Made by a program: the position numbers and the translations under genes. Below, piece by piece: positions 51,668-54,413 of a DNA stretch of 64,000 nucleotides (its first letter is position 1; each line of letters begins with the position of its first letter). Source of the stretch: Methylacidimicrobium sp. AP8 (GTDB taxonomy: Bacteria; Verrucomicrobiota; Verrucomicrobiia; Methylacidiphilales; Methylacidiphilaceae); contig NZ_LR797830.1 in assembly GCF_903064525.1 (NCBI RefSeq), positions 1,860,001 through 1,924,000 on the forward strand. Reading direction: 5' to 3'. The notes under the pieces are model-generated. The model was not told the DNA's origin. It saw nothing but the letters and a program-made list of their open reading frames with translations, and made no database searches.

Positions 51668-52252
51668 TCAGCGATCGTCGGGGTTGAGGCTAAGGAAGAT
51701 CCAGGCGGCGCAGGCGCCGGCCAGCAGTTCCGCGACCCAGTAGAGGCCCAGGTACGGCCAGGCGACCAGGCCGATCCAGCCCAACCCGACGGCGACCGCC
51801 GGATTGAAGGCGCCGCCGGAGATCGATCCGACGGCGGAGGCACCCACCATCACCGTGATGCCGATCGCCAGCCCGTAGAAGGAGTTCCCGGCCGTCGCCT
51901 TGGCGGTCGCGCTGTTGAGGACGACGTAGACCAGCGCCAGGGTAAAGAGGAATTCCGCCAGGAAGGCCGGACCCGCGGCGACCGCCATCCGCGTGACCGA
52001 GCTGCTTCCCTTGATCGCTTGAGCGGCGACCGAGCCCAGGACCGCACCGGCGACTGGGGCGATCCAATACGGGAGGAAATACGGGAGGACGTCTTGCGCC
52101 GGGCACCGGCCGCGCAGCCACGCCCCGAGCGTCACCGCGGGATTGTAATGTCCTCCCGAGAGATGCCCCCCCCCGGCGAACACCATGAGGGCCGATCCGA
52201 CCGCCAGGGGCGCGAGGACCCCCGGCGAGGGCGCGATCGCGCAGCAGCCCAC
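51668..52252 (-). CDS. Aquaporin-family channel lacking the first membrane helix
   Basis: 194 residues from GTG 52252 (AGGA just upstream); family members are usually 230-250. Both half-helix motifs are present, GGHYNPAVTLG and GGAFNPAVAVG, but the second has V where most aquaporins have the filter arginine (NPAR). The sequence corresponding to helix 1 (AEFIGTFFLV-type) is not found in any frame upstream. It is convergent with gltB, 6 bp apart, and downstream of the SBP56 gene pair. It may be a truncated or atypical small-solute channel. Confidence 0.75.
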   Translation of the reverse strand: MGCCAIAPSPGVLAPLAVGSALMVFAGGGHLSGGHYNPAVTLGAWLRGRCPAQDVLPYFLPYWIAPVAGAVLGSVAAQAIKGSSSVTRMAVAAGPAFLAEFLFTLALVYVVLNSATAKATAGNSFYGLAIGITVMVGASAVGSISGGAFNPAVAVGLGWIGLVAWPYLGLYWVAELLAGACAAWIFLSLNPDDR

Positions 52253-52392
52253 CGTGATCCTGCGGACGATCCGGCTTGCTAGTACGACTTGCGGCCTCGG
52301 AAGGCAAGCTCTATTCTCCTTCCGCGCATCTCGGGAGCCCGGCAGGGGCGGCCCTGCGGGAACGGTCTCCGTCCCTCTCCCGCCGCGTCCGC

Positions 52393-53013
52393 CTACGGGA
52401 AGAGCAGGAGGGTGCCGGCGGCCAGCAGCAATGCGATCCCCCAGAGCACGTCGAGATTCCACCAGGCCCGCCGCAAGAAAGAGAGGCCGACCCGCTCGAA
52501 GACCAGCAGCGAGATGCCCAAGGCTACGGCCCAGTAAGCCACCGAGTGCACGGCTGTCAACCCGAGGGCTTCGGTAATCGGCATCCCGCCCGATGCCTGG
52601 CGGCCGCAAAGGGCGGCGCCGCCTAACGCCGGCGCCAGCATCAGCCCGGCGCCGTGAGCGGTGGCCATGAGGAAGGCCCAAAAGACCAGGTCCCGGAAAC
52701 CGACGCGCATGCCTACCCAGCGAGGATGCCGGGCCCGCAAAAGCCAGAAGAGGCCGAAACCCGCCAAGAGAAGGGCGGCGCCCAGGGCGATCCAACGGCG
52801 AGGAATCCAGACGCCGGACCCCCAAATCAGGAGGACGGCGGTGCCCACGGCGAGGCAATGGCCGAGGACGAAGGCCGCGACGGCCGAAAATACGGCCTTC
52901 CTACGCCCCTCCTGGTAGCCGAGCGCCACGGCGAAAAGCCATCCCATGGCCGGATTCAAGCCGTGAAAGGCGCCTAGCCCTAAAGCCGCGGCCCAGGGAA
53001 GCCATCGGATCAC
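52393..53013 (-). CDS. Polytopic membrane protein coupled to SBP56
   Basis: 206 residues with about six hydrophobic helices, starting at GTG 53013, which overlaps the SBP56 stop (GTGA). A conserved-looking motif in the first helix, LGAFHGLNPAMGWLFAVALG, recalls the histidine motifs of the LysE/NicO/DsbD-like transporter group, but the family cannot be fixed by eye. The tight coupling suggests a function linked to methanethiol oxidation, for example handling copper, sulfide or another product. Confidence 0.7.
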   Translation of the reverse strand: MIRWLPWAAALGLGAFHGLNPAMGWLFAVALGYQEGRRKAVFSAVAAFVLGHCLAVGTAVLLIWGSGVWIPRRWIALGAALLLAGFGLFWLLRARHPRWVGMRVGFRDLVFWAFLMATAHGAGLMLAPALGGAALCGRQASGGMPITEALGLTAVHSVAYWAVALGISLLVFERVGLSFLRRAWWNLDVLWGIALLLAAGTLLLFP

Positions 53014-54413
53014 GGAAAACAGAAGGAGTCGGTGGAACAGTCCCCGCCTTCGAGCCGGATTTGATGCGCCCGGTGCGTCCGGGGGAACTCGACGAAGAAG
53101 CGGGGGTCCCAACGAAGCCCATCCTCCCCGGCATGGGCCAAAACCATCCAGCTCGAGATGCCGTCCGGATAAAACTGGTCGTCCCACGCGCGGTAGAGCG
53201 AATTCGTCAGGTAGACCCGCTTTCCATCCCGGCTCACCTCCACCATCTGGCAGCCGCCGTTCAGAGGCTTCTGCGGCGCTCCGGGATGAGCGGTTCTCCG
53301 CGCAATCCCGCCCAGCCGAAGGCTGCTCACCCGCTTCGGATGAAAGGGATCGGTCACATCATACTGGAAAATCTCTCCGGTCCCCCAGCACGATAGGTAG
53401 AGAAAGCGATCGTCCAGGGAAAGATCGATATCGGTAAGAAGGGGCGGCACGACCCCGAAGCTTTTCAGGAGCGGAGGGAGCTCCGCTTCGGTTGCCGGCT
53501 CCGCCGGGATCTCGATCACTTTCTGCACCGCCCATCGGTCGCCGTCCCGGTACCAGAGCCAAACGGAGCTCGCTAGATCCTCCAGGGAAAGCACGACGCC
53601 GGTGAAGCCGTACGATTTCCTCGGATCATGGGCGGGGCGGACTTCCAGAACCATCTGCTCCTTTTCCTCCAGGTCGAGCTTTTGCATGTGCCGCCGTTTC
53701 CGGAGGTCCCAAACGTGGAGGGAGCGGCCGTAGGCACCCTTCATCAGCTGGTCGGGCAACAGGCCGTTTTCCAGCATCCAGGGCACGCCCCATTCGCTGC
53801 TGATCAAAACGTCCTGGCTGATATGCCACCAGAAGTCGTAGGCGAAAAACTGGGGACCCCTATCGATTTCCCAGCTGCCGAGAGGCTCGAACGAGAAATG
53901 GTCCAAGAGGAGAATGCCGCCCGGACCGTCCCCCTTGGCATTGCCGAAGGCGCTGATGTAGATGCCCTCCGGCCCGCAGTGGACGGTGTGAGGCCGCGTG
54001 TAGCCCGTCCTGCGGATGAGCTCTTCCGGCTCGATCCGCTTGACGATCTCGGGCCGGCGCGGATCGGGTCGCGTATCGACGATGTAGATCCGGGACGAGC
54101 GGACCCCGGGGATGACGAGATAGCGCCGCTCCAAGTGCGGATGCGGAGCGTAAGGACAGAGTGCGGAGCTGCAGGCGTTCCAGCCAAAATGGTGAAATTC
54201 GTCGCCAACCGACGGAACGGCAAGCCAGTGGACGATCCTGCCGTATTCCGATGACTCGGGATCAAGATCGACTACCGCGAGGGCATCGGGATTCCCGCTG
54301 GGGCTGCCCCCGTCGGCGGCCAACGCCACGACGTAGCCGAGCTTTTCTCTGGGGCCTTCCATCGCAAGACGGGGAGAGGGATAGAAGGTCGGATCGGGAG
54401 CTGTGAACCTCAT
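53010..54413 (-). CDS. mtoX: Selenium-binding protein 56 family, probable methanethiol oxidase
   Basis: 467-residue seven-bladed propeller. SBP56 hallmarks are HHFGWNACSSALC near residue 75, TRPHTVHCGPEGIYISAFG, FWWHISQDVLISSEWG, and LTDIDLSLDDRFLYLSCWGTG. Bacterial members (MtoX) are copper enzymes that oxidise methanethiol to formaldehyde, sulfide and hydrogen peroxide; many have a Tat or Sec signal, but none is evident here, so a cytoplasmic location or non-classical export is possible. The gene name is by homology. It is followed by a coupled membrane protein and an aquaporin. Confidence 0.88.
   Translation of the reverse strand: MRFTAPDPTFYPSPRLAMEGPREKLGYVVALAADGGSPSGNPDALAVVDLDPESSEYGRIVHWLAVPSVGDEFHHFGWNACSSALCPYAPHPHLERRYLVIPGVRSSRIYIVDTRPDPRRPEIVKRIEPEELIRRTGYTRPHTVHCGPEGIYISAFGNAKGDGPGGILLLDHFSFEPLGSWEIDRGPQFFAYDFWWHISQDVLISSEWGVPWMLENGLLPDQLMKGAYGRSLHVWDLRKRRHMQKLDLEEKEQMVLEVRPAHDPRKSYGFTGVVLSLEDLASSVWLWYRDGDRWAVQKVIEIPAEPATEAELPPLLKSFGVVPPLLTDIDLSLDDRFLYLSCWGTGEIFQYDVTDPFHPKRVSSLRLGGIARRTAHPGAPQKPLNGGCQMVEVSRDGKRVYLTNSLYRAWDDQFYPDGISSWMVLAHAGEDGLRWDPRFFVEFPRTHRAHQIRLEGGDCSTDSFCFP

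Follow-up and report, generated by a model that had tools for sequence, protein, structure and literature searches.

An SBP56 gene of Methylacidimicrobium sp. AP8 overlaps the gene of a conserved six-helix membrane protein, a possible copper supplier

Two types of SBP56 enzyme

Among described systems, the Hyphomicrobium and Ruegeria locus, with the gene order mtoX - SCO1/senC - mauG (Eyice et al., PMC5739008), resembles that of AP8 in encoding an SBP56-family protein with copper-site histidines beside a gene thought to handle copper. Human SELENBP1 and Caenorhabditis elegans SEMO-1 (PMC10362175) share with the AP8 protein the branch type of SBP56, the cytosolic location and the HH and HxxH motifs, but no membrane partner has been described for them and their copper enters via CTR1-type importers. 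SELENBP1 requires copper, and mutation has shown that the histidines of its metal site are needed for activity (PMC10362175). Finally, M. fumariolicum SolV, which belongs to the same family of organisms as AP8, has a soluble methanethiol-degrading activity with sulfide production, the degradation residing wholly in the soluble fraction; the paper places every verrucomicrobial enzyme under a single mtoX and does not mention the membrane protein described below (PMC9003020).

The window analysed here is a stretch of 64,000 nucleotides within the 2,300,970-base, single-contig AP8 genome. On its minus strand, at 53010-54413, lies a gene for a 467-residue protein that matches the SBP56 family (PF05694) over its full length (620 bits, cut-off 34; profile positions 3-453 of 453) and the Sulfolobus structure 2ECE at 623 bits. 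An earlier sequence-only reading of this DNA by a model had correctly recognised SBP56 here, but had called it MtoX-type. That assignment has to be corrected in favour of the SELENBP1-type branch: against the MtoX equivalog model NF052453 the protein scores 117 bits, far below the cut-off of 650, and neither SCO1/SenC nor MauG is among its listed neighbours, the next gene encoding instead an unrelated membrane protein, here called MEM. Score and neighbouring genes together rule out an MtoX identity. The HH and HxxH motifs (H73, H74, H137 and H140 in human SELENBP1) are present, and the copper-site histidines H74, H75, H142 and H145 of AP8 are conserved in 87 of 87 sequences outside the MEM-negative group. 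No signal peptide was seen by eye. As judged from its sequence, the AP8 enzyme is a cytosolic SBP56 of the SELENBP1/Sulfolobus type and a predicted methanethiol (thiol) oxidase. One named methanethiol oxidase gene, MTHMO_v1_1990, with expression of ~230 RPKM, is reported for M. thermophilum AP8 (PMC7907005); it is linked to the SBP56 gene of the window through the single copy present rather than through an accession.

Two other Methylacidimicrobium species (G002 and G003) encode a canonical MtoX, at 744-745 bits on NF052453, with SCO1/SenC adjoining and MEM absent. The MtoX-type enzyme is probably periplasmic; the start of the G003 protein, the only one translated, looks like a signal peptide by eye. 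At the loci L025:7331-9780 and L026:6872-9240, MtoX and SCO1/SenC replace the SELENBP1-type enzyme and MEM, and a PAPS-reductase-domain gene lies on the side opposite SCO1/SenC. In verrucomicrobial methanotrophs, and even inside a single genus, 'mtoX' stands for two distinct enzymes, each with its own partner, and this has consequences for predicting methanethiol turnover from genomes.

A membrane protein family paired with SBP56

The MEM gene (52393-53013, minus strand; 206 residues) begins with a GTG that overlaps the TGA stop of SBP56 as GTGA (53010-53013), an arrangement read directly from the sequence and taken by us as translational coupling of the two genes. Promoter and terminator scans gave no signals above chance.

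The scan of 84,980 species genomes retrieved 465 relatives of MEM. In the best 80 of these, a set ranked by similarity to the query and not a random sample, SBP56 adjoins MEM in 77 loci, of which 35 have the same 4-base overlap as AP8, so that the partnership suggested for AP8 by the sequence-only reading proves to be widely conserved. At least six phyla are represented, Verrucomicrobiota, Poribacteria, Acidobacteriota, Myxococcota, Actinomycetota and Chloroflexota along with other lineages. Of the three loci without SBP56, two have contigs that end at MEM and the third is from Actinomadura madurae (L113:4658-6621), where an orphan MEM has a gene that appears by eye to be transposase-like directly upstream; SBP56 was looked for in this genome and not found.

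Samples with less bias give a similar picture. A sample of 387 Verrucomicrobiota bore out the pairing, SBP56 and MEM both occurring in the same six genomes. Among 246 Actinomycetota, nine strong MEM matches lie about 9-68 bases from SBP56 by profile boundaries, two of the pair-bearing genomes being previously known carriers, and a tenth pair is decaying together. At L159 (G509:C3:116083-116813) fragments of both genes are adjacent, as if co-decaying, in a genome that retains a second, intact SBP56 from another clade. A search of 72,556 plasmid records yielded 38 MEM copies, each of them within 300 bases of SBP56. With a profile, diverged MEM could be recognised next to additional SBP56 genes, those of Rhodobacter, Rhizobium, Phaeobacter, Marinovum and Cupriavidus; the first four of these genera led us to reject the idea that SBP56 proteins of less than 60 percent identity all lack MEM. 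On the Marinovum algicola plasmid pMaD9 (L168:6-6634), genes annotated as DMSP demethylase DmdA and for DMSP breakdown are directly followed by SBP56 and diverged MEM, with methionine synthase nearby. The annotation of this cluster, which holds the pair, is for demethylation of DMSP, a pathway that produces methanethiol.

On the SBP56 tree, MEM presence requires three changes compared with a mean of 11.7 in shuffles, which we read as one gain and some losses on a tree with long branches and a midpoint root only. No third gene proved to be conserved across phyla, nothing recurring from group to group except SBP56, MEM and the antisense shadows of the two. The coupling of SBP56 and MEM is far beyond chance, given its recurrence across phyla, and the two form a two-gene unit. 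MEM itself had no match over cut-off in sequence searches of Pfam, NCBIfam and the PDB and, with its 465 relatives, it represents a real, unannotated family. The sequence-only reading had suspected that the arrangement was undescribed; for the SBP56-MEM pair this stands, no published description having been found in the open-access literature, but the aquaporin which it had included is not a conserved partner (see below).

Some SBP56 genes have neither MEM nor a clear replacement. On two Streptomyces plasmids (L166:5975-6448 and L179:4573-5022) the gene after a MEM-less SBP56 encodes a ZIP-like membrane protein, which reaches a Pfam E-value of 0.001 and is below the family cut-off. On two haloarchaeal plasmids (L175:2923-4667 and L177:2929-4647) a 2Fe-2S protein stands directly after SBP56 in place of MEM, with a 4-base overlap in one and simple adjacency in the other, and in an actinobacterial genome a cation-efflux gene lies beside a MEM-less SBP56. 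As a set of replacement metal genes these neighbours are mixed and suggestive only.

Copper supply and other possible roles of MEM

As the sequence-only reading had described, the GTGA-coupled protein is predicted to have six helices and carries an HGLNPAMGW motif. The AlphaFold2 model (mean pLDDT 85) has two of the six helices broken, at HGLNPAMGW and at HGAGLM. Nine residues, H17, M23, H52, H120, M125, H156, W184, D188 and W191, are invariant in 62 of 62 sequences, among them four membrane His, two Met and one Asp; there is no invariant cysteine. Positive charge is found in loops 1-2, 3-4 and 5-6, so that both ends of the protein and loop 4-5 are predicted to be outside. In 35 of 50 members loop 4-5 has at least two His, although not in AP8 MEM. 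The nearly equal spacing of the His pairs in AP8 MEM, 35 and 36 residues, hints at an internal repeat, yet none was found by comparing the profile of one half against the other (probability 0.1 percent).

Comparisons with known families give only faint signals. The match to HupE/UreJ (PF13795) reaches 11.4 bits (E = 0.26) against a cut-off of 24.5 bits, and six of 50 members show weak matches, below cut-off, to the cation antiporter GDT1 (best E = 0.007). Fold searches with Foldseek and VIA-align found nothing significant: the top Foldseek match is the electron carrier CcdA, at E = 0.06, and the best VIA-align Z-score, 7.5 to NRAMP, is within background. Since VIA-align only re-ranks Foldseek matches, absence from its results excludes no family. 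Proteins of the CcdA/LysE type do resemble MEM in having six helices, about 200 residues and breaks in helices 1 and 4, but that E-value is all that Foldseek gives and the conserved residues differ.

We infer that MEM supplies copper, by import or insertion, to the cytosolic copper oxidase with which it is paired, and consider this reading to have about an even chance of being correct. The AP8 SBP56 would be a cytosolic copper-dependent thiol oxidase converting methanethiol to formaldehyde, sulfide and hydrogen peroxide and, as a cytosolic copper enzyme, it needs copper to cross the membrane. In many members, though not in AP8, the His-rich outer loop 4-5 could collect copper outside; H17, H52, H120 and H156 with M23 and M125, positioned where helices 1 and 4 are broken and within helices 2 and 5, might then carry Cu(I) inward, and translational coupling would match production of the supplier to that of the enzyme. 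CTR-type copper importers have an outward segment rich in His and Met and Met in the membrane path. The analogy with MEM is purely functional, no sequence similarity being found and CTR-type proteins having three helices compared with six in MEM.

Copper supply is favoured by the strict pairing and coupling, the invariant His and Met, the His-rich outer loop that many members possess and the exchange seen on the MtoX side, where a copper chaperone, SCO1/SenC, adjoins the enzyme and MEM is absent. The ZIP-like protein that follows the two MEM-less Streptomyces SBP56 genes counts in the same direction, if only suggestively. The soluble activity of SolV, whose genus, Methylacidiphilum, carries both SBP56 and MEM in its sampled members, fits a supply role for MEM better than a catalytic one. 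Against copper supply, MEM shows no significant relation in sequence or fold to known copper transporters, AP8 MEM lacks the His-rich loop, and some SBP56 genes do without MEM and without a clear replacement. Further, recombinant human SELENBP1 made in E. coli is active with copper (PMC10362175) and therefore MEM is not strictly needed by every SBP56. The invariant His and Met could, moreover, bind haem or another metal.

The sequence-only reading had offered efflux of toxic products or supply of a cofactor as the role of the gene set; the second is favoured here, with the aquaporin left aside. Export by MEM of a product or substrate of the reaction (sulfide, sulfane sulfur or thiolate), limiting toxicity, would account for its being fixed beside a sulfide-producing enzyme, for helix breaks like those of transporters and for the position of the Marinovum pair within a DMSP-demethylation cluster. 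We nevertheless think it unlikely: sulfide and methanethiol are neutral gases that pass membranes by themselves, the invariant residues and outward His-rich loop are better suited to metal capture, and MEM is missing beside MtoX, which has the same products, albeit probably in the periplasm.

Equally doubtful is a role for MEM as a redox or maturation partner, perhaps haem- or quinone-linked, which modifies SBP56 or accepts its electrons. Several of the invariant intramembrane histidines could ligate haem, a MauG-like maturation has been proposed for MtoX, the weak top fold match is to an electron carrier and a 2Fe-2S protein directly follows the two haloarchaeal SBP56 genes. However, MEM has no invariant cysteine, and the SolV activity is entirely soluble, so that no membrane electron acceptor is needed for turnover in extracts.

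It is likewise improbable that MEM moves a different transition metal or removes excess copper, its link with SBP56 being one of general metal homeostasis. His-rich loops are found in many metal carriers, and the weak GDT1 matches and the cation-efflux gene adjoining one MEM-less SBP56 would be compatible with such a role, but the one-to-one partner of MEM is a copper enzyme, not metal-resistance genes, and the predicted outside location of the His-rich loop suggests uptake.

The neighbouring aquaporin and the significance of the pair

The third gene noted by the sequence-only reading, an aquaporin-family frame on the same strand (51668-52261, minus), is indeed present and matches PF00230 at 77-79 bits, but from profile position 47 only. 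NPAV occurs twice, so both NPA motifs are there; the frame does not, however, encode a complete six-helix protein with helix 1, as it lacks the first 14-17 codons of its congeneric relatives, which specify most of that helix. One intact aquaporin of the genus begins MRKYVGEMIGTFFL, and similarity of the AP8 protein to it starts only at its residue 15; similarity at the DNA level to a congeneric copy begins near 52257-52269, and a GTG at 52252 is the first in-frame start codon close to the conserved part. By these comparisons the AP8 gene is probably a 5'-truncated remnant. In two congeners MEM and aquaporin are separated by a LysR-family gene that diverges from the latter (L017:11082-12062 and L027:1000-1968), while the AP8 genome yielded no orthologue-like LysR match, only weakly similar LysR genes elsewhere. 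A deletion, with its probable site in the stretch between MEM and the remnant (52262-52392), likely removed the LysR gene along with the 5' end of the aquaporin in AP8. The aquaporin of another member of the Methylacidiphilaceae (G011, L021:3916-5399) is likewise in pieces.

An aquaporin is found near SBP56 only inside the Methylacidiphilaceae, on varying strands, and as a partner of SBP56 it is ruled out; its inclusion in a product-handling set, as first proposed, does not hold. A single product-handling operon of SBP56, MEM and aquaporin, for which the shared strand in AP8 and three congeners speaks, is highly improbable given an aquaporin that is on the opposite strand in Methylacidiphilum, unlinked in G002, G003 and G012, present among the best-80 loci in three Methylacidimicrobium ones only, separated from MEM by the divergent LysR gene in relatives and truncated in AP8. 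The three genes are not a single module.

For the SBP56-MEM pair we would go one step further, tentatively and with somewhat less than even confidence, and propose that small copper importers of a new family, with MEM as its first member, occur in several bacterial phyla and are often translationally coupled to one cytosolic copper enzyme. Little is known of how copper enters the bacterial cytoplasm, and bacterial cytosolic copper enzymes are few. If the proposal is true, a cytoplasmic cuproenzyme, of a type thought rare in bacteria, would have an uptake route of its own. Such a deeply conserved enzyme-transporter pair would offer a genetic handle on both copper uptake and cytosolic copper enzymes, with Sinorhizobium and Azospirillum among the tractable hosts.
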